From Luteibacter yeojuensis (lineage in GTDB: Bacteria; Pseudomonadota; Gammaproteobacteria; Xanthomonadales; Rhodanobacteraceae), in contig NZ_JZRB01000014.1 of assembly GCF_000964085.1 (NCBI RefSeq), positions 1 through 64,000 of the forward strand: a DNA stretch of 64,000 nucleotides, read 5' to 3'. Positions 8,743 through 29,255 of this stretch are shown here, piece by piece. The notes under the pieces are model-generated. The model did not search any database. It saw only the letters and a program-made list of their open reading frames with translations, and was not told where the DNA came from. Each line of letters opens with the position of its first letter. Within the stretch, counting starts at the first letter, position 1. The translations under genes and the position numbers were made by a program.

Positions 8743-9825
8743 ATGTCCGAACCCATCCCCATGACCCGCCTGCACAAAGGCCGCGGCGCCGCCTCCAACC
8801 CGGAGGGCCGCTTCGAATCCACGCGGTACCAGGCCGAGGACGATGGCTGGTACCGCGAGGATGACGACCGCCGCCCCGCCACCAGCGTTCGCGAGGAAAT
8901 CGCCCGCAGCGTCGTCTCGCGTAACGACTCGCCTGACATCGGCTTCGACCAGGCCATCAACCCCTACCGGGGCTGCGAGCACGGGTGCATTTACTGCTAC
9001 GCACGCCCCTCGCACGGCTACCTGAACCTATCGGCCGGCCTCGACTTCGAGACCAAGCTCTTCGCCAAGACCAACCTGGCCGACGTGTTGCGCGACGAGC
9101 TGGTGAAGAAGAACTACACCTGCAAGCCGATCAACATCGGCAGCAACACGGACCCCTACCAGCCGATCGAAAAGAAGTGGCGGCTCACCCGTGCCGCGCT
9201 GGCGCTGCTCAACGAGTGCCACCACCCTTGCACCATCGTCACCAAGAACGCGCTGATCGAACGCGACATCGACATCCTTGCGCCCATGGCCGAGCGGAAC
9301 CTGGTGCAGGTGTTCATCTCCATCAACTCGCTCGACAACAAGCTCGCCTCGAAGCTGGAGCCGCGTGCGTCGGCGCCGCATCGCCGGCTGCAGGCGGTGA
9401 AGGCATTGCGTGATGCCGGTATTCCCGTGGGCGTATTGGTTGCACCGATCATTCCTGCACTGAACGAGAAGGACGTGGAGGGGATCATCGAGCGTGCCGC
9501 GGCGGATGGGGCGAATTCGATTGGCTACACGTGCATCCGGCTGCCGCATGAGCTAAAGCAGCTGTTCCGGGAGTGGCTGGATATCCACTACCCCGACAAG
9601 GCGGCGCACATCATCAGCCTCATCCAGCAGATGAATGGTGGGAAGGACTACGACAGCAACTTCGCCACACGCATGCGGGGGCAGGGGATTTTCGCGGACA
9701 TTATCCGGAAGCGGGTGCAGGTGGCTTCAAGAAAGGCAGGGCTGCATCGGGCATGGGATACGGTGCTGGATACGTCGCGTTTCGTCCCGCCGCGGGTGCA
9801 TTCGCCACAAGGGGAGCTGTTCTAA
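8743..9825 (+). CDS. PA0069-family radical SAM protein, complete copy
   Basis: 360 residues. The cluster motif is C78-x3-C82-x2-C85 (GCEHGCIYCYARP), which binds a [4Fe-4S] cluster for S-adenosylmethionine cleavage. INIGSNTDPYQPIEKKW, CTIVTKNALIERD and LPHELKQLFREWLD are typical of the PA0069/SPL-like radical SAM family. The reaction is unknown. The gene is the left border of the accessory region: residues 82-360 are duplicated at 28416-29255 and shorter pieces of its 3' end recur at 9890, 16419, 22108 and 23287. Its own 3' half may have been supplied by an incoming element. It has no obvious ribosome-binding site because a palindrome occupies that position. Confidence 0.92.
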   Translation: MSEPIPMTRLHKGRGAASNPEGRFESTRYQAEDDGWYREDDDRRPATSVREEIARSVVSRNDSPDIGFDQAINPYRGCEHGCIYCYARPSHGYLNLSAGLDFETKLFAKTNLADVLRDELVKKNYTCKPINIGSNTDPYQPIEKKWRLTRAALALLNECHHPCTIVTKNALIERDIDILAPMAERNLVQVFISINSLDNKLASKLEPRASAPHRRLQAVKALRDAGIPVGVLVAPIIPALNEKDVEGIIERAAADGANSIGYTCIRLPHELKQLFREWLDIHYPDKAAHIISLIQQMNGGKDYDSNFATRMRGQGIFADIIRKRVQVASRKAGLHRAWDTVLDTSRFVPPRVHSPQGELF

Positions 9826-10483: not shown

Positions 10484-10576
10484 ATCAATACTCCCAAAAC
10501 GCAAATAAATTTCACGCCGCGTCGTGAAGCCGGGTCGGCATCCTTGCCGTGACAGGCGCTCCGTCCCATCCCATTT

Positions 10577-10615
10577 TGCATTTCGATGCGACATACTGCG
10601 TCGCACATCGATGCA
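10577..10615. promoter_or_regulatory. Inverted-repeat operator candidate for the WYL regulator
   Basis: The core TGCGAC (10587-10592) and GTCGCA (10600-10605) are perfect arms around 7 nt, and the symmetry extends outward to TGCAT...ATGCA over 39 bp. It lies 38 bp upstream of the WYL start, between the divergent genes. BrxR and CapW, WYL-domain repressors of defence operons, bind inverted repeats in equivalent places; applying that here is inference. Confidence 0.55.
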
Positions 10616-10652
10616 TCATGGAGAGCATCGAGAGCCTCAGGGGGCGATAGTT

Positions 10653-11654
10653 GTGAGTGCTGCCACAAAGGACACGGTCTGGCGCCAATGGAGTCTTTTG
10701 CGCCTCATGCCGCGCGCACCGACCTGGACCACGGCGTCCGAGTTGCGCAAGGCTTTGGCCAGACAGGGTATTGAAGTAAGCAGGCGAACCATCGAAAGGG
10801 ATCTTCAGGTCCTTTCGGGTCGTTTTCCCCTGCTCGCGGACGAATCCAGCAAGCCATTCGGCTGGTGCTGGGCGAGGGATGCGAACTTCCAGTTCACTCC
10901 AAGGCTGAGCGCATCCCAGGGCGTGGCACTTCTGCTTGCGCAGGCCCATCTGCGGACACTACTGCCGAGCTCCGTGCTAGCGGAACTCATTCCTCTGTTC
11001 GACCTGGCCGACCAGGAGCTTGCGCATGGCGACTGGAGTGACTGGCACCGACGCACCGCGGTCGTACCGACGTCACTGTCGTTGCTCCCTCCATCGATCG
11101 CGCCCGGGGTGCTGAACGATGTGCACGAGGCGCTGCTCTCGCGCCGCCAGCTGATGGCCTCCTATCGCTCCAAGGGCGCGACGGAGGCCCGCGAAACGAC
11201 GATTCATCCGCTTGGCCTGATCGTTCGCGGACCAGTGCAGTATCTCGTCTGCACGCTGTTCGACTACGGCGATATCCGCCAACTTGCACTGCACCGGCTG
11301 TCGGCTACGAAGGTCTCGCCTGAGCGCAGCGTGATGCCCGTCGGGTTCGATTTCACGGATTATGTCAGGCCGGCCATGAAGTACGAATCGGAAGGGCCTG
11401 TGCGCCTCGTTGCGCACTTCACGCCCGATGCCGCGGACCATCTCCGTGAGACAGCGCTCTCTAAAGATCAGCGCTTGGTGGACCTTGCTGGGACCGGGCG
11501 AATCGAGGTCACGGCCACCGTGGAACTGGACCAAACCCTTCGCTGGTGGCTCAAGGCATTCGGCAGCCGGGTCGAAGTGCGGGAGCCCGCGGCACTTCGC
11601 GAGGAGTTCGCAGCGGACCTGAGAGCCAGCCTCGCGCAGTACGACGCGGCCTGA
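10653..11654 (+). CDS. WYL-domain transcriptional regulator (BrxR/CapW-like)
   Basis: 333 residues from GTG 10653, chosen because GGGGGCG lies eight bases upstream; the longer frame adds an unlikely basic leader. An N-terminal winged helix-turn-helix (ELRKALARQGIEVSRRTIERDLQVLS) is followed by a WYL domain (TIHPLGLIVRGPVQYLVCTLF... LALHRLSATKVS) and a WCX-type C-terminal region ending ASLAQYDAA. Such proteins repress phage-defence operons and are thought to respond to a nucleic-acid or nucleotide ligand. It is about 40 bp upstream of, and probably co-transcribed with, the two dynamin-like GTPase genes, so it is likely their autoregulated repressor. Confidence 0.85.
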   Translation: MSAATKDTVWRQWSLLRLMPRAPTWTTASELRKALARQGIEVSRRTIERDLQVLSGRFPLLADESSKPFGWCWARDANFQFTPRLSASQGVALLLAQAHLRTLLPSSVLAELIPLFDLADQELAHGDWSDWHRRTAVVPTSLSLLPPSIAPGVLNDVHEALLSRRQLMASYRSKGATEARETTIHPLGLIVRGPVQYLVCTLFDYGDIRQLALHRLSATKVSPERSVMPVGFDFTDYVRPAMKYESEGPVRLVAHFTPDAADHLRETALSKDQRLVDLAGTGRIEVTATVELDQTLRWWLKAFGSRVEVREPAALREEFAADLRASLAQYDAA

Positions 11655-11695
11655 GTCTGCAACTGTCAACGAGCACTGAATATGACCAAGGAACG

Positions 11696-13924
11696 ATGGG
11701 CCAGATGACCACAGATGCTCTCAACGACGGCACGGTTGACCTGGCAGATACGATTTATCCGGCGATCCTTGCGCAGATCCACGGGCTGGTCGACACGGTC
11801 AGTCAGGAGACGACCGATGGAGCACTGGGCAAGAAGCAGGAAGCCGCAAAGGCCATGCTCGAGTCAATCGCGGGCAAGCTTACCGACGACGTCGAGTGGC
11901 TGCGCAAGCATTCCCGGACGAAGGATTTCACGCTCGCCTTCTATGGCGAGACAAACGCCGGCAAGTCTACCTTGATCGAGTGCCTCCGCATCCTCCTTGG
12001 AGAAAGAACGAAGAAGGAACAGCGCGCCGCATTCATGAAGCTGCAGCAGCAGCTCGGGCTGAGCGAATCGGACCTTCAGGAAGCGGAGGCGCGGGTAGAG
12101 GCAGCTCGGCTACAGCTCGACGAGGTTGCTGCCGAAGCGCTCGCCCAAACGGTGATCCACGCAGAGCAAGTCGCGGCGATCGACGAGCATATCGCCACGG
12201 CCCAGTCGGCGATCGATGCGCGAGCCAAGGCAGTCAGCTGGTTCGGGCGCATCATGCACCTGTTCCGTGAATGGCCCGAGGAGCGTGAACTGCGCGAACT
12301 GAAGGCGCGGCACACAGAGCTCCCATCTCGGCACAATGGGGTTATGCAGCGTCTTCGTGATCACGAGGCCGAAGCGCAGCTCGCACGCGAAAGTGCCTCG
12401 AAGTATCGCGACGCGGCATTGGGCAACCTGGCCGAACTCGCCGCTTTCGAGGATGGACAGATCATTGGCGATGGCAGGTCCGACTTCACCCGCAAGACCG
12501 GTGAATATACGTTCACGGCGGGCGACCAGACCTTCATTATGCTGGATGTTCCGGGCATCGAAGGTGACGAGGCCCGGGTCGGTGACGAGATCAATGAGGC
12601 GATGGCGTCAGCACATGCCGTCTTCTACGTTACCGCCAAGGCCGCGCCGCCGCAGACGGGAGAAACCGGGCGTCCTGGCACGCTTGAGAAGATCAAGGCC
12701 CACCTCGGCTACCAGACTGAGGTGTGGACTATCTTCAATAAGCGCGTGACTAACCCGATGGCGCTCAAGAAGACCGGACTGCTTACGGCCGACGATGAAG
12801 GGGGTCTTGCCGACCTCAACGCCAGGATGGTGGAGCAACTGGGCCGGAACTATCAGGGTGAGATAACCCTGAGTGCACTCCCAGCGTACCTCGCGGTGGC
12901 TGACTGCATTGTCCCGAGGTCCACGAACGCCAGCATCCGTGACAAGTTCCTGGGCGCGTTCTCCGCCCTGGAGCTTCTTGAAAAGTCAGGGATCGACTCA
13001 TTTCGGCGACGCGTGACCGGTGAGATGATCGCGGGCCAGGAGGAGAAAATCCGTCTGGCGAACATTCACAAGGTAGCTTCGACGCTCAGGGACGTAGGTA
13101 CTGAGATCGAACAGATGAACAAGGCAGAGTTCACTCCGTTAGCCGACGAGCTTGCCGCGAAAGCCAGGAACTCCGGAAGGCAGCTCGACATCGCAGTGAC
13201 TGGCCTGAAGAGCCGTCTTGAGAATCGTGGCGAGCAGGCGGTGCATGAGTTCGAGAATGAGGTCAGAAGGAAGATCTACAAGGTTATTGACCGCAACGTC
13301 AGCAACGACGCCTTCGAGGAATGCCTGCGCGAGATCTTGGCAGCCGAGCAGGGGGCCCTGCAGGAGAGGCTGCCGGTGAAGCTGGACGAGGAAGTGGTGC
13401 TCTTCCAGGAGCACGTTAAGACGGTTGTCGAACGGTTCGCGGAGCATGTTGGCGCGTTGCTCGCCAGCTACGAACACCTGCGCCGAGTGCGGACTGAGAG
13501 CACATTCTCGCTCAATGTGAACATCGACAATGGGATCAACTATTACGGAATACTCGGAAGCCTGGTGAGCGGTGGCCTGCTCATTTGGAATCCGGCTGGC
13601 TGGATCATTATGTCCATCAGCATCGCGTCGCTCGTAGCGAGTCTCATCAAGTCGGTATGGTCATTCTTCAATGACGACTATAAGAAGGGCCAGCAACGCA
13701 AAGCGGCTGACGAAAACCTGGCCAGTATCTGCGCTGAAATTCGCACTTCATTGAGGGCGAGCCTCAAGGAAGCGATGCCTGGTCTCGAAGAAAACGCCAG
13801 GATGATCCATGACCTACTTCAAGCGCCCGTGCGTCAGGCACGGCAGGTCGCCAGCGCGTTAGATAGCGCTAGGCTGTACCTCAAGCGCCTCTCTACTACC
13901 CTCGAAACCCAGGACGCTATCTGA
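11696..13924 (+). CDS. Dynamin-like GTPase, LeoBC-type component of an Eleos defence system
   Basis: About 742 residues from ATG 11696 (AAGGAA just upstream; ATG 11705 is an alternative). The GTPase motifs are G1 GETNAGKST (84-92), G3 DVPG (284-287) and FNKR for G4. A long predicted coiled coil lies between G1 and G3 (LQQQLGLSESDLQEAEARVEA), an unusual insertion. Near residues 615-657 is a hydrophobic paddle (YYGILGSLVSGGLLIW) suited to membrane insertion. Dynamin-like proteins remodel membranes, and LeoBC with LeoA forms the Eleos anti-phage system. The stop overlaps the next ATG (TGATG), implying coupled synthesis. Assignment rests on architecture and partner. Confidence 0.78.
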   Translation: MGQMTTDALNDGTVDLADTIYPAILAQIHGLVDTVSQETTDGALGKKQEAAKAMLESIAGKLTDDVEWLRKHSRTKDFTLAFYGETNAGKSTLIECLRILLGERTKKEQRAAFMKLQQQLGLSESDLQEAEARVEAARLQLDEVAAEALAQTVIHAEQVAAIDEHIATAQSAIDARAKAVSWFGRIMHLFREWPEERELRELKARHTELPSRHNGVMQRLRDHEAEAQLARESASKYRDAALGNLAELAAFEDGQIIGDGRSDFTRKTGEYTFTAGDQTFIMLDVPGIEGDEARVGDEINEAMASAHAVFYVTAKAAPPQTGETGRPGTLEKIKAHLGYQTEVWTIFNKRVTNPMALKKTGLLTADDEGGLADLNARMVEQLGRNYQGEITLSALPAYLAVADCIVPRSTNASIRDKFLGAFSALELLEKSGIDSFRRRVTGEMIAGQEEKIRLANIHKVASTLRDVGTEIEQMNKAEFTPLADELAAKARNSGRQLDIAVTGLKSRLENRGEQAVHEFENEVRRKIYKVIDRNVSNDAFEECLREILAAEQGALQERLPVKLDEEVVLFQEHVKTVVERFAEHVGALLASYEHLRRVRTESTFSLNVNIDNGINYYGILGSLVSGGLLIWNPAGWIIMSISIASLVASLIKSVWSFFNDDYKKGQQRKAADENLASICAEIRTSLRASLKEAMPGLEENARMIHDLLQAPVRQARQVASALDSARLYLKRLSTTLETQDAI

Positions 13925-15630
13925 TGGAGTCGACACTAGAACTGTTCCAGGCCAAACAGGCCCACGCCCTCGACCTGCTCGGCAAGCTCGAACAATTCAT
14001 CCGACAAGGGTCAGATCTTGGCGTGCCAATCGATCCCTCCCTTTCCGCCAAGCTGGACCATGCTAGCCAGACCCTCTCCGACAGCAAGCTGAAGATCGCA
14101 CTCATCGGCGGCTTTTCAGAGGGTAAGACGTCGATCGCGGCGGCGTGGATGGAGCGCTTGGACAAGGCCAGCATGCGCATCAGCCAGCAGGAGTCTTCCA
14201 ACGAGATCTCTGTCTACCAGGTCGAGGATGACCTGTTGTTGATCGATACGCCGGGGCTCTTCGGGTTCAAGGAGCGAAATGACGCCGATCTCCAGGCTGT
14301 CGAGAAGTACAAGGACATCACCCGGAAGTACGTGAGCGAAGCGCACCTGGTTTTGTACGTCATGAACTCGACGAATCCGATCAAGGAGAGCCACAGGGAC
14401 GAACTTCACTGGCTTTTCCGCACCCTTGATCTGCTTCCGCGAACGGTCTTCGTGCTGAGTCGATTCGATGAGGTTGCCGACGTCGAGGACGAGGGTAGCT
14501 ATCAGGAAAGCCTGAAGGTGAAGCGCGCGAACGTGCAGGATCGGCTCCGCGATGCGCTGGACATGAACGCCCAGGAGGTCGCCGACACGTGCATCGTAGC
14601 GGTCGCGGCCAACCCGTTTGACCTTGGTACCGAGCACTGGTTGGCGAACCTTGAGCAGTTCAAGTCGCTCTCGCATATCAGCAGCCTACAGGCCGCTACG
14701 CTGGCGAAGATAAAGGACAACGGCGGGGCCATGGTGCTCGTCGACCAGGCGCGGAAGAGTGTCATCCGGGATATCCTCCACAAGGAACTCCCGGTGGCCA
14801 AGGAGAATGACGACCGGCTGGGCGCTGAGCTGGAAAAGCTAAAGGACGGTCATCGAACGCTGACGAGTCAGCTGGCTGGCGCCGGTAGCCAGCTCTCTGA
14901 GGCACGCACGGCTTTGCGTGAATTCATTGTTCGCTACTTCTCGGATCTCATCCTCCGGACGCAGGGCCTGACACTCGAAACGTTCCCTGAGTTCTTTGAG
15001 CGTGAGATCGGTGCCGAAGGCATCATCGTCACGACCCGCCTTCAGAACGAATTCGACCGCCAGCTCAATGGGGTCGCGCAGGAGCTCGGGCGCATGCGGC
15101 TCAGCTTTGATTCCGAGGTCAGCTACTTCAACGACTCGGTGCTCAAGTTTGGCAAGCAGGGCGTCAATTACCTGGTGAAGGGCAACCTCATCAACAACAC
15201 CAGCATCCTCGCTGCGCGCGATGGCGTGGTCGGTATCGCGAAGACGCTTGGCATGGACTTGAGCAAGGCCCTGAAGTTCAAACCCTGGGGCGCGGTGAAT
15301 CTGGCAAAGGGCGTCAATGGTGCGCTAGCCGGTCTGGGGCTGGCCCTTGAGGCTTGGGATAGCTACGAGCGAATTCAACGCCAGAAGGAATTCGAGTCCG
15401 CGAAGGTCAAAATGGTTGGGAACTTCGAAGGCCAGCGCAAGGATCTTATGGAATTGGTCAATGACGACTATTTTATCGAGCGATTCTTCCCCGAGTACGC
15501 ACAACTTCAGGCCGGTATTGCTGAAGTGGCGGCAGCCATCGCCAGGCAGGAAGACTTGCGTCGTCAGTTCCACCAGTGGCGGGTAGCCGGCGAGTTTATC
15601 GAGGGCGAGTTTTCGGTCGTTGTTGGCTAA
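13924..15630 (+). CDS. leoA: LeoA-type dynamin-like GTPase of an Eleos defence system
   Basis: 568 residues, close to the length of E. coli LeoA. G1 is GGFSEGKTS (62-70), G3 is DTPG (108-111) and SRFDE (179-183) stands for G4. A helical stalk follows, and a weakly hydrophobic region (GVNGALAGLGLALEA) lies near residue 465 where a paddle would be. Its ATG overlaps the LeoBC stop, so the pair is made in step and likely co-assembles on membranes. LeoA was first linked to toxin secretion in enterotoxigenic E. coli; the pair has since been shown to protect against phage (Eleos). The role here is inferred from family and neighbourhood. Confidence 0.82.
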   Translation: MESTLELFQAKQAHALDLLGKLEQFIRQGSDLGVPIDPSLSAKLDHASQTLSDSKLKIALIGGFSEGKTSIAAAWMERLDKASMRISQQESSNEISVYQVEDDLLLIDTPGLFGFKERNDADLQAVEKYKDITRKYVSEAHLVLYVMNSTNPIKESHRDELHWLFRTLDLLPRTVFVLSRFDEVADVEDEGSYQESLKVKRANVQDRLRDALDMNAQEVADTCIVAVAANPFDLGTEHWLANLEQFKSLSHISSLQAATLAKIKDNGGAMVLVDQARKSVIRDILHKELPVAKENDDRLGAELEKLKDGHRTLTSQLAGAGSQLSEARTALREFIVRYFSDLILRTQGLTLETFPEFFEREIGAEGIIVTTRLQNEFDRQLNGVAQELGRMRLSFDSEVSYFNDSVLKFGKQGVNYLVKGNLINNTSILAARDGVVGIAKTLGMDLSKALKFKPWGAVNLAKGVNGALAGLGLALEAWDSYERIQRQKEFESAKVKMVGNFEGQRKDLMELVNDDYFIERFFPEYAQLQAGIAEVAAAIARQEDLRRQFHQWRVAGEFIEGEFSVVVG

Positions 15631-22179: not shown

Positions 22180-23199
22180 TCAGGTGCGCATGTACCGAAC
22201 TTCTCTACGTTCTACGCAGTTGGAGTAGATCGCACCGTGCCCGGACGTATCTCGCAGATTCCGGAAGATGAAGGGGATGCCGAACATGGCGACGACAGCA
22301 TGCTTTTCATGCAGCACTGCGATGTGGAGGGCGTGCGTCGGCGAATTTGCGAGGTTCGCGACATGGTGTAGTAGCGATGTGCCCCGAGAGAAAGGCTCTG
22401 CATCGAACGCGTGCATCAGATCGTCAAAACCAGATCTGGTTGGAATCGTGCCGTCTCGCACCGAGCCCAGGAGGTCGCGGAAGTGCGTCGCACGCGCTGA
22501 TTCGACGAAGCTTTCGCGATCCTCTACCGCGGCGATCTCGAATGCGACCTTCGCGGCCTCCAAAAAGAGGCAGGGCATATCCACAGCTACCTGGCCTGCG
22601 ATCTCGCCGGTTGGCGTGGAATGACTCGGGGCATTCTTGTAGTTCTCGATCGCCTGGTCGATAGCCCGCCGCTGCTCTTGCGGCGACCAGCCGAGCGCAG
22701 CGCCTTGAGGGGACTTGAAGAATCGTTCGAATTTCGATCGAACAATAACGGGGATCTTGTCACGGTCGGACGCATCGATCAGAAATGAGCTGGCCAGCCC
22801 CCCTTCTGGGGTGATCGACACGTCTTTGATCTGCGGTATGACTCGCGGCTTGAAATCAGCGTCCAGTTTGACCTGCACGCTTCCGCTAGGTCCGGTGACG
22901 GTGTGCGGGCCCTCGAATGGCTGCGGGATGTTTCCACGTCGCCCTCCGAGCTTGTGCGCATTTCGTGCGACCTGGATAAAAGGTTGCTTCAAGTACGGGG
23001 CGTCGATGTGCCGGCCGAAGTGACGGTTGCATCGCTCACATAGGATGTTGGCCGTGAGAAGTCCTCCGGCACCATCGGCGAAGATATGCTCCTCGGTCAA
23101 GGGAGGTGGCGCCATGCACTGAATACACCGCGAGGCGACGTATGGTGGCCCCTGCAGTAGCAGGAAGGCGTCGTGGCTCGTGCTCGAAGAAGAATTCAT
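22180..23199 (-). CDS. HNH endonuclease-type protein
   Basis: 339 residues. Near residue 27 the HNH-like core reads CIQCMAPPPLTEEHIF, then ILCERCNRHFGRHIDAPYL: two CxxC zinc pairs around EH(I) with N and FG..ID, typical of HNH_5-like nucleases. The rest is not recognised and may hold a recognition or sensor domain. It is single, without methylase or helicase directly beside it. Its left end is 52 bases from scar 3 and its right end 88 bases from scar 4, so it could be the sole cargo of one insertion. Confidence 0.7.
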   Translation of the reverse strand: MNSSSSTSHDAFLLLQGPPYVASRCIQCMAPPPLTEEHIFADGAGGLLTANILCERCNRHFGRHIDAPYLKQPFIQVARNAHKLGGRRGNIPQPFEGPHTVTGPSGSVQVKLDADFKPRVIPQIKDVSITPEGGLASSFLIDASDRDKIPVIVRSKFERFFKSPQGAALGWSPQEQRRAIDQAIENYKNAPSHSTPTGEIAGQVAVDMPCLFLEAAKVAFEIAAVEDRESFVESARATHFRDLLGSVRDGTIPTRSGFDDLMHAFDAEPFSRGTSLLHHVANLANSPTHALHIAVLHEKHAVVAMFGIPFIFRNLRDTSGHGAIYSNCVERREVRYMRT

Positions 23200-23286: not shown

Positions 23287-23403
23287 GAATGGTGGGAAGG
23301 ATTACGAAAGCAACTTCGCCACGCGGATGCGGGGGCAGGGATCTTCGCGGAAATCATTCGGAAGCGGCTGCAGGTGGCTTCGCGCAAAGCGGGGCTGCAT
23401 CGG
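23287..23403 (+). repeat. 117-bp remnant of the radical SAM gene 3' part (hot-spot scar 4)
   Basis: Matches 9634-9750 of the intact gene closely, from GAATGGTGGGAAGGA through GGGCTGCATCGG, then diverges abruptly. One G is missing in a G-run relative to the intact gene, which shifts the frame, so this copy is decayed. A gene-left part that ends at the core is what a left-hand junction would look like. Confidence 0.8.
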
Positions 23404-23574
23404 TCAATGTTCCAGATAGATCGCCCGACCACTCCTCTTCAATCCCTCAATGAGCATTTGGACAACGAGGAAGATATGCTCGAATGCCTCGACCATAACA
23501 CTCAGGTCGGGCAAATTATCCGGCCGCGCGCCGTCGCAGCCGTCGACCCTCAGCCTATCCCACTATGACTTTTC

Positions 23575-25206
23575 CTAGTCGCTTATAGTCCAGTAAATTT
23601 CGCAATCCTGACCTACCCAGTCATTTGCGGCGGCCATGATCCGCCGCACACTATCAGCGCTCTCATCATCAAGTGAAGCCGCGGATAGCCCTGGTTGAAC
23701 GGCAAACACGACGAGCCGAAAGCTGATGGGATCGGTCGACTCGATCAGCCGAATGATGCTTTCGCGATCACTAACCAACACGGGAGAGTGCCCACCATTC
23801 CTTCTTTCTAACGTCCGCCTCTTGATGTGTTGAAGTAGGAACTCTTTGTCGAAAAACCGAGCGGACTTCACCGCTTGACCAGCTACCTCATAAACATCAT
23901 CGACTCGACCAGCTCCTGGCTTACCTCCTGCACCCTTGCAATGATGAAGCTCGACTACAAGTTGTTCATCGACGCTACGACCGACAATAAAATCAGCGGC
24001 CTCACCGCTTCGGTGGTCGTAGATCAAGAACGTAGGTCCCGAGGCGACAAGTATATCTTTCAGAAAGGGTTGAATTGAGACCAAACCTTCGGCCTTGGCT
24101 GGACCAAACTCGGTAGAAATGTCGCAGCCATCCCAAACACGTGGCCTCAACGATTCGGCGTTGAGGGAAATTGACGGAACCACTTCGTGAAGAGTGCCGT
24201 CAGCGAACGTGGCAAGATTCTTCGTGAAATAAGTAAGCGAGACATCATCGAGCCACTCGTCAATACCAATAAATTGATGATCATTGGCCTCGACAAGAAG
24301 ACGCAGTGGACTGTTCCCCATGATGCTGTACGACGGAGAAGCAGACGGGTCGTACCTAATTGATACTCGATGATTTTCGTCGGCGATATCAAACGAAAGG
24401 CTCGATTGATCATCTTCGACTTGAAACGAACGTATATCGCAATCCAGTATGTTGCTTGCGACAGACACATCTCCGTCCTGCCAACGGACCGATGGGGCGG
24501 TTTTATAAGCGTCTGGGCCCCAGTCGGCCATCACTGTATCTAGGGGTATCTGCTCCAGCGGCTCGCCGAGGCGCAAGCGATCAAGGCCCGACTTACCAAT
24601 CGAAACATGCTTGGCCGTAATTCTCGCATGAAGTTCGGAGACCCAATCAACTACCGACTTGATGGAGTTGCGTCCCGTCGACCAAACACGACCTCCGCCG
24701 CTCGCTCCAATCAATTCGGTTCGGCCAGCGCCGTTGACAGCCCTCCCGAAGAAATGACCAGGAGCATACTTGGCCCCCGTGGAATCGGAGATGGTTCTGT
24801 CAGTATTAGCACCAGCTGATATTCGGTACGACTCGGCCGAACGAATCGGTGAGGTGCTGCGCATACCGACGTTAAAGAATTCCTGATTGTTGAGTCCATT
24901 GAGGACCAGCCTCGCCACACGGAAGTTGATCTTGGATGCCGATCCCTCCAGATAGTGCTGGATTATCTCCCCATACGATCGTCCTGATCGCGACGTGGCT
25001 GTGATGAAGAAAAGTGAACTGTCGGGAAAGTAGCGGATGACAAAGCAGTCAAAGTTCACGGTACGAAGCTCATTGGTCGCATACCAATCAGGCGATCCGG
25101 TCGTGCGCGTAACTAGGATAGCGGTAAGCCTATCTTGGCTAATCCACGATCCAACTATCCGACCTTGGTTGATCAATGCGGGGGGATTCGTCAGGTAAGG
25201 CTCCAC
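23575..25206 (-). CDS. C-terminal nuclease-like part of the helicase system (separate gene or frameshifted second half)
   Basis: 543 residues from GTG 25206. The C-terminal third holds a PD-(D/E)xK-like core: ADFIVGRSVDEQLVVELHHCKG, with D on one strand and ExxxxK on the next, then GRVDDVYEVAGQAVKSARF. Upstream are mixed beta regions of unknown fold. The start overlaps the helicase stop by 16 bases in another frame. AGGG precedes the GTG, so it could be its own gene. However, translation in this frame stays protein-like upstream of the GTG (SLPFHAAIFRAS), and helicases of this type usually carry a long C-terminal domain, so a one-base frameshift in a single ~970-residue gene is at least as likely. 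Confidence 0.65.
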   Translation of the reverse strand: MEPYLTNPPALINQGRIVGSWISQDRLTAILVTRTTGSPDWYATNELRTVNFDCFVIRYFPDSSLFFITATSRSGRSYGEIIQHYLEGSASKINFRVARLVLNGLNNQEFFNVGMRSTSPIRSAESYRISAGANTDRTISDSTGAKYAPGHFFGRAVNGAGRTELIGASGGGRVWSTGRNSIKSVVDWVSELHARITAKHVSIGKSGLDRLRLGEPLEQIPLDTVMADWGPDAYKTAPSVRWQDGDVSVASNILDCDIRSFQVEDDQSSLSFDIADENHRVSIRYDPSASPSYSIMGNSPLRLLVEANDHQFIGIDEWLDDVSLTYFTKNLATFADGTLHEVVPSISLNAESLRPRVWDGCDISTEFGPAKAEGLVSIQPFLKDILVASGPTFLIYDHRSGEAADFIVGRSVDEQLVVELHHCKGAGGKPGAGRVDDVYEVAGQAVKSARFFDKEFLLQHIKRRTLERRNGGHSPVLVSDRESIIRLIESTDPISFRLVVFAVQPGLSAASLDDESADSVRRIMAAANDWVGQDCEIYWTISD

Positions 25207-26507
25207 AGATGCCCTGAAGATCGCTGCGTGAAATGGCAGCGAACGTTGTCCAGCGTCAGAAGGTCGACCACCGAGCCTGTGTCCGTGCTATCAAATCCTT
25301 CAGTAAACTCACGTTCGACCGCTGCCTTCGCCTGCTGGGCATCGGCAACATCGGCAAGAAGTACAGACCAATCGACGCCCTCGCGAAACAACTCACCGCT
25401 CTCGCTCTGAACGTGGCTAAACGGTGCTATAAACGTCGCGTCAGCGGTTTTTAGGTCGTTGGTACGGGCAAACCTGCCGATGAACTGCAGGGTGGGTACA
25501 AGAGATCTGTGTACCGCATGAAGTACGGCAATCTTAAATTTCGGAAAGTCGTATCCTTCACCGAACATGTCGACGCATACGACGCCATCAATGTCATTAG
25601 ATGCGAGACGCTGCTCGATCTTATCGATCTGGCGCCGCGACACCATGCTCGAAACAGCTTCAACCCTCAGTCCCTTTGCAACGTAGAGGTTGACCAGATC
25701 CTTCGCGTGAGCAACGGTGTTTGTACGGATAAGCATTCGGTGGTCAAAGCCAGCGTCGCGGTCTCGCCTGTATATCGCTTCTGCCTTAGTCGCCAATAGC
25801 TCATCTATTTCGGGTCTGTCAGCGCCCTCCGGAGTATCGATTGCATCGAAGGTAACCTTGCCAAATGCTCCCTCCGCCGCAGCTTTTCTAAGCGGATAGT
25901 GAAAGATGAGTTTGCCTGGAAGTCCGAGGCGGTCCCTCCTAAATGGAGTTGCAGATACGAGAACCTGGTTCGCATTCACATGCGAAAGTAGGGCTGCCCA
26001 TGTTGCCGCGGGTGAATGATGCCCCTCATCGACAAGTACAAGATCAAAGAAGCCTTCCGGCGGGGGTGAAACTCCGTCGTTTTCCGGGCTAACGACCTGC
26101 GGTGTAGCGATGACTACGTCAGCTCCCTCTAGAGCCACCCATGCCTCACGGTTTGCTGGCCGTGACTCAAGTAACGCTACTGTCGGAGGACGAAGGTCAC
26201 GATTGGCTAGAAGATCGAGCCGCTTTAGAACGTCCAAGTCCGAGAAGGTTTTGCCCATTTGCTTCCGTAGTGAAGCAGTTGGTACCACGACTAGGACGCG
26301 TTTCGGGCGAAGTAGAAAACACAGACCAACAAGTACGGCAGACTTACCGTAACCAGTCGGCAGCGAGACAATTGCACCCTCATCGCTGCTCGTGAAATGT
26401 GCGGCAGTGGCGTACAGCGCGGCGATCTGCCCAGGCCTTAAGCCCGCGTTGGGGCCTGAGGACGGGCGGATGACGAAGCAATCACCGTTTTCCTCGAAGT
26501 AGCTCAT
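25191..26507 (-). CDS. SF2 DEAD/DEAH-type helicase (probable defence helicase)
   Basis: 438 residues; AGGGAA is four bases before ATG 26507. Motif I is SLPTGYGKS (residues 48-56), motif II VDEGHH, motif III SATPFRRD, and motif VI QFIGRFART. RecA-like domain 2 includes MLIRTNTVAHAKDLVNLY and VCVDMFGEGYDFPKFK. The chain ends after LLTLDNVRCHFTQRSSGHLWSLT, which does not look like a natural terminus and overlaps the nuclease-like ORF. It would couple ATP hydrolysis to nucleic-acid translocation feeding the nuclease. The XRE/ImmA pair, a 42-codon ORF and a candidate RNA lie upstream. Confidence 0.78.
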   Translation of the reverse strand: MSYFEENGDCFVIRPSSGPNAGLRPGQIAALYATAAHFTSSDEGAIVSLPTGYGKSAVLVGLCFLLRPKRVLVVVPTASLRKQMGKTFSDLDVLKRLDLLANRDLRPPTVALLESRPANREAWVALEGADVVIATPQVVSPENDGVSPPPEGFFDLVLVDEGHHSPAATWAALLSHVNANQVLVSATPFRRDRLGLPGKLIFHYPLRKAAAEGAFGKVTFDAIDTPEGADRPEIDELLATKAEAIYRRDRDAGFDHRMLIRTNTVAHAKDLVNLYVAKGLRVEAVSSMVSRRQIDKIEQRLASNDIDGVVCVDMFGEGYDFPKFKIAVLHAVHRSLVPTLQFIGRFARTNDLKTADATFIAPFSHVQSESGELFREGVDWSVLLADVADAQQAKAAVEREFTEGFDSTDTGSVVDLLTLDNVRCHFTQRSSGHLWSLT

Positions 26508-26530
26508 GTTGTTCCCTCAATTGCGCGCAG

Positions 26531-26549
26531 GGCTCGGGAGTCCCGAGCC
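26531..26549. promoter_or_regulatory. Palindrome before the helicase gene
   Basis: GGCTCGGGAGTCCCGAGCC is fully symmetric about its central base. It lies 24 bases upstream of the helicase start, between the micro-ORF and the helicase, and may be an operator or an mRNA hairpin. Confidence 0.45.
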
Positions 26550-26577
26550 ACACATCTGACCGAGTCCCATAGGGAAG

Positions 26578-26608
26578 GACTGGGCGCGCTACCAATGCGC
26601 GCCCAGTC
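26578..26608 (-). terminator. Strong hairpin directly after the 42-residue ORF
   Basis: GACTGGGCGCGC and GCGCGCCCAGTC form a perfect 12-bp stem around a 7-nt loop, three bases past the ORF stop. There is no clear U-run on either side, so it may be an attenuator or RNA-processing hairpin and not a full terminator. Confidence 0.5.
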
Positions 26609-26610
26609 GA

Positions 26611-26739
26611 TTAGGCGAAGAGAACGTATTGGTGGGGGGCCGATCGCCAGTGCTGAATAACGTGTTCCCACTTACCGAAGCGGAAGCGAACGTAATTTCG
26701 CACGAAGACGATCTTAGGCCGCAAATGACTTGCGTCCAT
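26611..26739 (-). CDS. 42-residue basic micro-protein upstream of the helicase
   Basis: Product: MDASHLRPKIVFVRNYVRF and a further 23 residues ending QYVLFA. It is rich in arginine, aromatic residues and histidine, with no transmembrane segment. GGAG lies eight bases before the ATG, and a 12-bp hairpin follows the stop directly, both of which support a real gene. It is on the same strand as the helicase, 104 bases upstream. It might be a nucleic-acid-binding partner, a leader peptide or an antitoxin-like component; none of these is shown. Confidence 0.55.
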   Translation of the reverse strand: MDASHLRPKIVFVRNYVRFRFGKWEHVIQHWRSAPHQYVLFA

Positions 26740-26785
26740 CTCAATCACTCCAAATTTGTCTGGAGGAGATAGTTGCCCACGGATA

Positions 26786-26804
26786 TGAAAGTGCTACACT
26801 TTCA
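26786..26804. promoter_or_regulatory. Palindromic operator candidate overlapping a -10 box
   Basis: TGAAAGTG-CTA-CACTTTCA has perfect 8-bp arms. On the plus strand it contains TACACT (26795-26800), 16 bp after TTGCCC (26773-26778), a fair sigma-70 promoter directed at the candidate small RNA. It also lies upstream of the divergent 42-residue ORF, so one repressor could control both directions. Confidence 0.5.
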
Positions 26805-26806
26805 AG

Positions 26807-26895
26807 CGTCCTACCAAGACAGCCGTGGTCGGCAGAGGGACTCCTCACCACCATGCCAAAGCTTCTCAATGTTCGAGCATTGGGGAGCTTTTTTA
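26807..26895 (+). ncRNA. Candidate small RNA, about 90 nt, with its own terminator
   Basis: Downstream of the promoter-like TTGCCC/TACACT there is no open frame. About 90 bases later an imperfect hairpin (26858-26871 with 26878-26891, loop TTCGAG) runs into TTTTTT, an arrangement typical of an intrinsic terminator on the plus strand. The start site near 26807 is estimated from the -10 box. The hairpin could also serve the convergent ImmA gene from the other side, so the U-run direction is the main evidence for a plus-strand RNA. Confidence 0.4.
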
Positions 26896-27429
26896 TATGA
26901 AGCGTTCCCGCCTCAGTTCGTTGATCCGCACGGATGCAGCTTGTTCTGAAACAACGCACTCCGCGGCCAGGGTCCAAGGATCAGGAAATTTGCGGACAAC
27001 TTCGACTGGCATAAGGAACTCGCCGGCAAAGTTGTCCGCCTGCCACTCCGAGTCGCGAAACAGCGGAAGCTCACCGGACGGGCGCCGGGATCGCGCAAGT
27101 GGACATCCGTGAAGCACTAGGTGGCCAAGTTCATGGGCGGCGGTGAATCGGTCCCTGCCACGGTCGGTTCGTAGGCCATCGTAGACATCCTCACGAAGCC
27201 AGATCTCAGCTTTGTCGGGGAACGTCCAACCGTGATCATCTCCCATTTCGTCCAGGCCCTTCGAACCCAGATAGAAGTCAGGCCAAACCTTAGGGAGTTC
27301 GAGCTCGAGGTACTGATACAGCGGAAACGCCTTTTCGGGGTCGCACCGGAAGGAGTTTCGAAGGCCAGACGCGATGTCCCAGACCTGTCGCTTTGATAGG
27401 GGCGACACCTCGAATCCACGCCTACGCAT
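26893..27429 (-). CDS. ImmA/IrrE-type zinc metallopeptidase
   Basis: 178 residues from ATG 27429, which overlaps the XRE stop (ATGCGTAG) and has GAGGAG six bases upstream. The active site is HELGH (residues 99-103) in FTAAHELGHLVLH, with EWQADNFAGEFLMP supplying the third ligand. In ICEBs1 and in IrrE, such proteases cleave or antagonise a partner XRE repressor after a damage signal. The overlapping XRE gene is the obvious substrate. Together they would form a switch that releases the helicase operon to their left, which is inference. Confidence 0.85.
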   Translation of the reverse strand: MRRRGFEVSPLSKRQVWDIASGLRNSFRCDPEKAFPLYQYLELELPKVWPDFYLGSKGLDEMGDDHGWTFPDKAEIWLREDVYDGLRTDRGRDRFTAAHELGHLVLHGCPLARSRRPSGELPLFRDSEWQADNFAGEFLMPVEVVRKFPDPWTLAAECVVSEQAASVRINELRRERFI

Positions 27430-27793
27430 CTTTGTCTCCTCGGGGAGGGGCAATTTGCTTGAACAAGCTTTCGACCTCGCCCTCTGAAAGATTCTCGAAG
27501 CGCCGGGCGAACGCTACGGCGAGTTCGCGTGCCCGATCGCTTCCATTGGCAAGCGAAATCGTGACCTCCTTCGCCTGGCCGGCGGCTGCCTGCGCCAGTG
27601 ATGACTCTTCACTGGCAGTGAGCGACAGTCCGCGCGTCACCGCGTCAATAAACGAAGGCGGCACTGCTTTGCGCCCGGTTTCCACAGCCGAAACAAAGGC
27701 TGTGCTCACATTCGCCAGACCTGCCAGATCAGCCAGCGTCTTATCGCGGTCTATCCTCATCTTCCTGAGCAATTTTCCGAATGGACTTAACAT
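27422..27793 (-). CDS. XRE-family helix-turn-helix repressor
   Basis: 123 residues. The helix-turn-helix is LLRKMRIDRDKTLADLAGLANVSTAFVSAVETGRKAVP (given in shorter form: TLADLAGLANVS, then TAFVSAVETGRK). The tail is helical (RARELAVAFARRFENLSEGE). It is translationally coupled to the ImmA protease gene. A promoter with -35 TTGAGA and -10 TATACT lies upstream, with an inverted repeat over the -10 box, consistent with autorepression. No strong ribosome-binding site is visible at ATG 27793. Confidence 0.85.
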   Translation of the reverse strand: MLSPFGKLLRKMRIDRDKTLADLAGLANVSTAFVSAVETGRKAVPPSFIDAVTRGLSLTASEESSLAQAAAGQAKEVTISLANGSDRARELAVAFARRFENLSEGEVESLFKQIAPPRGDKDA

Positions 27794-27826
27794 GGGTGGC
27801 CGCCTGCGTTGGATACGTTCGAGGTC

Positions 27827-27854
27827 AGTATATACCTTATACTCGTTTTCTCAA
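27827..27854 (-). promoter_or_regulatory. Promoter and operator of the XRE-ImmA operon
   Basis: On the minus strand TTGAGA (27849-27854) and TATACT (27827-27832) are spaced by 16 bp. The -10 box is one arm of the inverted repeat AGTATA-N5-TATACT (27827-27843), so a bound repressor would cover the promoter. Confidence 0.6.
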
Positions 27855-28415
27855 CCAATGGGTATAATTTCAATCATGATGTGTTCGTTGTCAACAATTG
27901 ACACCACATCTAGTGTGAGGGCCGCTCCGGATCGAGGTGCTAGGCAAGAATTCTTTAGCACACTCAAAAAATGTTCATAACTAGTTGATTTGTAATAAAT
28001 ACTCCGCTGAATGGCATTTTGAAAGACTTTCAAAGGTACCTGAAAGCCAATATCTAAGGAATATTAAAATGCAATACAATCAATGTGTTAAGAAGGTGTG
28101 CATCGAGCTGCCGGAGTTCGAATCCGCCGTAGACTCGGCCTTCCGTCGCCACGAACAGGCAGTCTTCTAACTCCCCTGGCACTCAGATCAAGGATTGGGC
28201 AATCGACTCATACGAGAAACAAGTGCCGCTCTTTGGCATGCGGGGGCCGCATACCTTTCTGCAATTTTGGAGTACGAAAACAGGGGGGTGCCGGTTTGCC
28301 GGTCACGCACGAGGGGCTGTTCACTCGTAGCCTGAGCGATCACGCGATCTCGTTGATTTGTTCAGCGGGATAGTCCCCGAAAGTGAACACTTTCTAGATC
28401 GTCATAAAGTGCTGG
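27855..28415. other. AT-rich stretch without a supported gene, right end of the accessory region
   Basis: Several frames of about 60 codons exist on both strands, but none has a good start site or a recognisable domain. GC drops well below the flanks between 27850 and 28100. Possible, weak remnants of the radical SAM gene end occur near 28147-28170 and 28300-28320. The homology to the radical SAM gene begins sharply at 28416. Confidence 0.5.
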
Positions 28416-29255
28416 TGCGTCTATTGCTACGCCAGGCCCTCGCACGGCTACCTCAACCTCTCGGCCGGCCTCGACTTTGAAACGAAGCTCTTCGCCAAGA
28501 CCAACCTCGCCGACATCCTGCGCGATGAACTGGCGAAGAAGAACTACACCTGCAAGCCGATCAACATCGGCAGCAACACGGACCCCTACCAGCCGATCGA
28601 AAAGAAGTGGCGGCTCACCCGCGCGGCGCTGGGGCTGCTCAACGAGTGCAACCACCCGTGCACCATCGTCACCAAGAACGCGCTGATCGAGCGCGACATC
28701 GACATCCTCGCGCCCATGGCCGAGCAGAACCTGGTTCAGGTGTTCATCTCGATCAACTCGCTCGACAACAAGCTCGCTTCGAAGCTGGAGCCGCGCGCGT
28801 CGGCGCCGCATCGCAGGCTGCAGGCGGTGAAGGCGTTGCGTGATGCCGGCATTCCCGTGGGCGTGCTGGTTGCGCCGATCATTTCCGCGTTGAACGAGAA
28901 GGACGTGGAGGGAATCATCGAACGTGCCGCGGCCAATGGGGCGAACTCGATTGGCTACACATGCATCCGGTTGCCGCATGAGTTGAAGCAGCTGTTCCGG
29001 GAGTGGCTGGATATCCACTACCCCGACAAGGCCGCGCACATCATCAGCCTCATCCAGCAGATGAATGGTGGGAAGGATTACGACAGCAACTTCGCTACGC
29101 GCATGCGCGGGCAGGGGATTTTCGCGGACATTATCCGGAAGCGGGTGCAGGTGGCTTCGCGGAAGGCCGGGCTGCATCGGGCATGGGATACGGTGTTGGA
29201 CACGTCGAAGTTCGTGGCGCCGCGGGTGCATTCGCCGCAGGGGGAGTTGTTCTAG
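28416..29255 (+). pseudogene. 5'-truncated second copy of the PA0069-type radical SAM gene
   Basis: The frame is open from before 28416 to the stop and matches residues 82-360 of the copy at 8743-9825, about nine bases in ten being identical, including the C-terminus HSPQGELF. The first 81 residues, with the first cluster cysteine, are missing; homology starts exactly at C82 (CVYCYARPSHGY). There is no start codon or ribosome-binding site at the junction, so it is not expected to be functional. It forms the right border of the accessory region and was probably the original chromosomal 3' end. Confidence 0.9.

Follow-up and report, generated by a model that had tools for sequence, protein, structure and literature searches.

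A frame-broken helicase-nuclease gene beside a phage-type repressor-protease switch: probable independent neighbours in a Luteibacter yeojuensis island

Two adjoining open reading frames in an island of the Luteibacter yeojuensis genome, one encoding a helicase and the other a probable nuclease, are by sequence comparison a single gene, split through a change of reading frame. The window analysed is a stretch of 64,000 nucleotides (contig NZ_JZRB01000014.1, positions 1 to 64,000). On the same strand, upstream of the split gene, lie genes for an XRE repressor and an ImmA metallopeptidase, followed by a micro-ORF; on sequence grounds, these three form a phage-type switch resembling CapH/CapP. 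A preliminary description had read the whole set as an undescribed defence cassette. Its parts are real and their coordinates hold, but it counted one gene too many. The region instead probably holds two independent island pieces: the broken helicase-nuclease gene (26507-23575) and the phage-type switch (27793-26611). In order of coordinate, the features are:

23287..23406, plus strand: fragment of the 3' end of a radical-SAM gene, the left limit of the cargo block
23575..25206, minus strand: 3' half of the helicase-nuclease gene (543 aa), with the middle region and the C-terminal PD-(D/E)XK-like nuclease
About 24138-23578, minus strand: nuclease region, with GEAAD from 24006, HHCK from 23946, and an invariant-Q region at 23886-23863
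25191..26507, minus strand: 5' half of the same gene, a RadD-like SF2 helicase (ResIII, 1.3e-20)
25230..25293, minus strand: stretch where homology switches from frame -3 to -2, breaking the frame (7 of 7 intact relatives, tblastn)
26531..26549, no strand: perfect inverted repeat of 9 bp, 24 nt upstream of the helicase start (repeat scan)
26578..26608, no strand: perfect 12-bp inverted repeat between micro-ORF and helicase (repeat scan)
26611..26748, minus strand: basic micro-ORF of the phrog_21154 family (PHROG, 2.8e-10)
26858..26891, plus strand, opposite to the genes: terminator-like hairpin of 15 pairs with a T-run, in the leader 3' of ImmA
26893..27453, minus strand: CapP-like ImmA/IrrE (M78) metallopeptidase, 186 aa (Peptidase_M78 PF06114, 1.3e-9; PADLOC capP, 1e-15)
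27422..27793, minus strand: CapH-like XRE/HTH repressor, 123 aa (HTH_31 PF13560, 5.7e-10; PADLOC capH, 4.6e-8)
27827..27854, minus strand: promoter-like site over an AT-rich inverted repeat, before XRE (promoter scan)
28414..29254, plus strand: second, 5'-truncated copy of the radical-SAM gene, the right island border

Comparison of seven intact relatives with the window by tblastn locates the break. A first piece of homology runs in frame -3 from 26501-26513 to 25269-25293, and a second in frame -2 from 25230-25275 to 23578-23581; the gap between the two pieces in the query is 1 to 22 residues. The helicase ORF, of 438 codons, is 52-63% identical to these relatives up to 25269-25293, and its last 20-30 residues form a short out-of-frame tail without homology. 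The second piece starts 24-69 nt upstream of GTG 25206, the earliest start codon available to the 543-aa ORF; this GTG falls inside the helicase ORF, and the two frames overlap by about 97 nt. Homology upstream of this GTG, together with a helicase tail that lacks homology, points to a recent frame change rather than two old genes. Both parts occupy one 1008-aa frame in G125, the first close relative found (63% and 52% identity). The SF2 helicase of the preliminary description stands and its nuclease is plausible, but tblastn joins the two as one broken gene. The locus illustrates a common trap, in which the two halves of a frameshifted gene are mistaken for separate members of a new cassette.

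Other genomes were scanned, with alignment of the 543-aa part, and 190 relatives were confirmed among 356 pattern-matched stretches; the best 80 were kept. By record title these 80 (of 190) come from Pseudomonadota, Bacillota, Planctomycetota, Acidobacteriota, and other groups. In 68 of these best 80, both window ORFs are matched by one open frame of at least 900 aa, with frames taken from stop to stop and true starts lying later. The other 12 are varied. One locus is cut by its contig end (L043), and another, near a contig end, has both parts in 860 aa (L086). Five match the C-terminal part only (L071, L072, L084, L090, and L103; L084 with an internal stop). The remaining five (L062, L067, L079, L088, and L099) retain both parts, broken by stops or frame changes, the latter near residue 129 of L025 (the naturally intact gene of Paraburkholderia silvatlantica) in L067 and near 264-269 in L088. 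A frame change at the window's place occurs in none of the 12.

Because the window's frame is interrupted between the helicase and the middle region, the full-length protein probably is not produced from this copy, which is probably dead. Three other accounts of the break bear on this conclusion. The apparent frame change may be a sequencing or assembly error in an intact gene: the assembly is a draft of 144 contigs and the remainder of the gene is undecayed. This is unlikely, since other copies of the gene also show frame changes or stops, and a non-systematic look through the list of ORFs from 6000 to 36000 noticed no second adjoining pair of half-genes. The overlap of about 97 nt could also let programmed ribosomal frameshifting join the halves, but it contains no in-phase X XXY YYZ heptamer, even by a looser criterion, and 68 of the best 80 (of 190) relatives need no such device; this account is scarcely credible.

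A further account keeps both products, as translationally coupled helicase and nuclease subunits under a DNA-damage-inducible XRE-ImmA switch. Both halves are open (438 and 543 codons) with catalytic positions kept, the split falls between helicase and middle region, the strand order is the same, and the GTG of the 3' ORF lies within the 5' ORF after a purine-rich stretch, so that coupled synthesis of two chains is conceivable. The homology upstream of this GTG and the tail without homology are, however, what a recent frame change would leave; no kept relative lacking the 900-aa frame shifts frame here; and the micro-ORF and two inverted repeats separate the switch from the helicase, with the putative operator present in a single copy. 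Coupled subunits are therefore doubtful, to about the same degree as a sequencing error, and the break is better read as a recent lesion in one gene.

The intact gene encodes a protein of about 980 aa. A RadD/ResIII-like helicase comes first, then a middle region about 350 aa long, and last a PD-(D/E)XK-like nuclease at the C-terminus. Pfam models matching the helicase ORF are ResIII, DEAD, Helicase_C, and SWI2_SNF2, with no DinG-type model. Among 40 relatives, 33 match NCBIfam RadD and 30 match PADLOC typeIV_DinG at 0.001, the latter covering residues 24-94 in the one member tabulated. The window helicase itself differs from the RadD (YejH) repair helicase, scoring 39.6 bits against an NCBIfam cut-off of 720. 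To our knowledge, RadD has no nuclease. Structural comparison of the helicase returned FANCM, Mfd, and RIG-I rows with tied Z. For the 543-aa ORF, profile searches of Pfam, NCBIfam, and PHROG found nothing, and PADLOC gave one weak match (Csm6, 0.0032, residues 60-116). Its model has a pLDDT of 90.4 and a weak structural match; residues D405 and H422-x-K424 are invariant in 54 of 54 alignment rows. The C-terminal domain probably adopts a PD-(D/E)XK-like nuclease fold. The Shedu nuclease domain (8ti9) is listed among the closest known systems. Elsewhere in the same genome (G000:C55:102784-103269), a further short stretch matches the nuclease end, with 28% identity over residues 357-515 in a 350-aa frame.

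The nearest described analogue is Hna of Sinorhizobium meliloti, which PMC13381803 presents as a widely distributed single protein with an N-terminal SF2 helicase and a C-terminal PD-(D/E)XK nuclease, 845 aa long, with a DinG-like helicase of the ExoDinG kind and nuclease residues P-D...E-x-K that were mutated. PMC12445080 calls Hna horizontally transferred. Hna is described as a 3'-5' ssDNA exonuclease that ATP restrains and phage SSB triggers. The relatives share its plan of an SF2 helicase followed by a probable nuclease in one protein (68 of the best 80 among 190), with the window copy frame-broken. The family is nevertheless set apart from Hna, as described, by its length of about 980 aa, its RadD/ResIII-like helicase, and its middle region, and by H-x-K where Hna has E-x-K (all 54 rows). 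Hachiman (HamAB) also uses a helicase and a nuclease together against phage, according to PMC10925250 and PMC12278908. There, however, the HamA nuclease and HamB helicase are separate proteins, in contrast to the family's one frame (68 of the best 80 among 190). HamB gave weak helicase matches only, in 11 of 40 relatives at 0.001, and no PADLOC match of HamA to the 543-aa ORF was found.

The family is thus broad, combining a RadD-like helicase and a probable nuclease in one protein. It has no name in NCBIfam, in PADLOC 2023 (generic helicase matches only), or, for the C-terminal part, in Pfam. To that extent the preliminary description was right that no named system fits. By their domains and neighbourhoods, and by analogy with Hna and Hachiman, intact relatives are most likely anti-phage effectors, in which the helicase would track or sense invading or damaged DNA and the nuclease would degrade DNA. 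In the window's copy, the change of frame would interrupt that protein. The helicase-nuclease family is what merits following, in an intact relative.

The repressor-protease switch already recognized in the preliminary description is present: the end of the XRE gene overlaps the ImmA ORF, and ImmA carries the motif HELGH (from 27135). CapH+CapP is described in PMC13373217 as a DNA-damage-responsive repressor and M78 protease upstream of an immune operon; such pairs are termed ssDNA-activated regulators there and, with CapW/BrxR, are said to govern neighbouring BREX, Pycsar, CBASS, and DISARM operons. The window resembles this arrangement in the overlap of an HTH repressor gene with an M78 protease gene bearing HExxH. 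The switch lies upstream of the helicase on the same strand, but a micro-ORF, a leader, and two inverted repeats intervene, and there is no second operator-like copy. The switch's nearest fetched relatives, moreover, are in viral contigs. By family, the M78 protease would presumably cleave the XRE repressor on DNA damage. Release of an effector by repressor proteolysis, put forward earlier as a plausible new design, is the general design that the same source (PMC13373217) already describes for CapH+CapP. The AT-rich inverted repeat before XRE might be an auto-operator, which is a guess; no second copy within 3 mismatches occurs in the window. The promoter scan that marked this site found 1 site versus 2.9 expected, no more than chance.

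The ImmA has 18 relatives in IMG/VR viral contigs (best 46%), and its nearest fetched relatives are viral. Conceivably, then, the XRE-ImmA-micro-ORF set is a module left by a decayed prophage or some other element, with no tie to defence; besides those viral relatives, 23406-28414 holds no other ORF longer than 195 aa. Set against this are the open XRE and ImmA genes, with HELGH kept, and the CapH+CapP pairs known upstream of immune operons (PMC13373217). This origin is a serious possibility, somewhat short of even, and is compatible with two independent island pieces.

The micro-ORF was correctly reported as a basic ORF of 42 residues, the length from an in-frame ATG (45 aa from GTG). In three IMG/VR contigs (L105, L107, and L111) it lies a few hundred bases downstream of an ImmA relative, beside XRE-ImmA. 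Among 299 genomes of the order, relatives of the micro-ORF turn up in 16, one of them the window's own (loci L124-L138); in the short loci fetched around them in the other 15 genomes, no ImmA or XRE relatives were found. The window and the three viral contigs share a leader of about 150 nt (26752-26895) from ImmA to micro-ORF. Folding of the window leader against shuffles gave z -3.99 on the plus strand and -2.40 on the minus strand; for three leaders folded, z was -3.99, -4.74, and -1.75 on the opposite strand and -2.40, -3.73, and -0.37 on the gene strand. The terminator scan found 12 terminator-like sites versus 5.1 (sd 2.3) in shuffles. The leader looks like a small RNA on the plus strand ending in a terminator-like hairpin; its alignment comprises four sequences, two nearly alike, too few for a covariation claim. 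Downstream, both palindromes reported before the helicase are perfect (26578-26608 and 26531-26549). The 9-bp repeat is absent before eight close relatives of the helicase, one of which, L013, has a different inverted repeat.

Whether switch and helicase belong together was assessed at 91 helicase loci: the best 80 of the 190 relatives and 11 others (L014 and L104 being the same place). Searches for micro-ORF and ImmA covered open frames of at least 30 aa within the fetched flanks; on that basis the micro-ORF occurs at 0 of 91. Searched with an ImmA-family profile over the whole of their fetched stretches, 6 of 91 loci contained M78 proteins (L054, L069, L070, L071, L087, and L102). At 2 of 91, the helicase is preceded on its own strand by an XRE gene and a separate ImmA gene. 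In L102, where a 171-aa ORF comes before the helicase, ImmA is 43.8% identical to the window's over 73 residues; in L069, it has no meaningful similarity to the window's. L071 has a fused XRE-ImmA protein ahead of its C-terminal remnant. In this sample the proposed co-conserved cassette therefore falls, the helicase occurring without XRE-ImmA in nearly all loci, which is the outcome that the preliminary description had named as refuting it; these three loci allow that some link may exist.

When 609 neighbour ORFs from 69 loci were clustered, the largest family covered 5 loci, all one close group; by eye, type I methylase-like and transposase-like neighbours recur in 3-4 loci. Defence models (AriA, capP, GajA, GajB, PtuA, and type II restriction enzymes) match 2-3 each of 97 neighbours of relatives (97 of 202 listed, from loci among 51 of the 68), low counts in which one AAA protein may match several models. 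Most likely, XRE-ImmA and helicase-nuclease form a chance neighbourhood in a defence island, not a conserved system. Read-through could conceivably bring the helicase under the switch's control. Far bolder, and very improbable, is a split two-subunit helicase-nuclease effector with overlapping genes, released by a phage-derived CapH/CapP-like switch together with the micro-protein and the opposite-strand RNA; if true, a phage regulatory module would have been recruited to control an anti-phage effector.

The insertion site of the island is the radical-SAM gene, so named from PF04055 (2.2e-6, just below the Pfam cut-off). The island begins inside its intact copy (8743-9825), and the truncated copy at the right border is 92% identical to 8984-9824. 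All five ORFs (XRE, ImmA, micro-ORF, helicase, and the 543-aa ORF) lie on the minus strand between the radical-SAM fragment and this truncated copy. Of 23 genomes in the genus, four carry a second copy that starts at gene nt 242-244: the window's (8984 / 28414), G194, G289, and G287. In three of these, about 20 kb separate it from the full copy. A precise attachment site within the gene, used recurrently, is likely. The neighbouring cargo block contains an HNH_5 endonuclease gene (22180-23199; PF14279, 8.5e-8). Elsewhere in the same island, 10524-15630 may be a further defence unit: by eye, a WYL-type-regulator-like ORF there precedes two dynamin-like GTPase ORFs.
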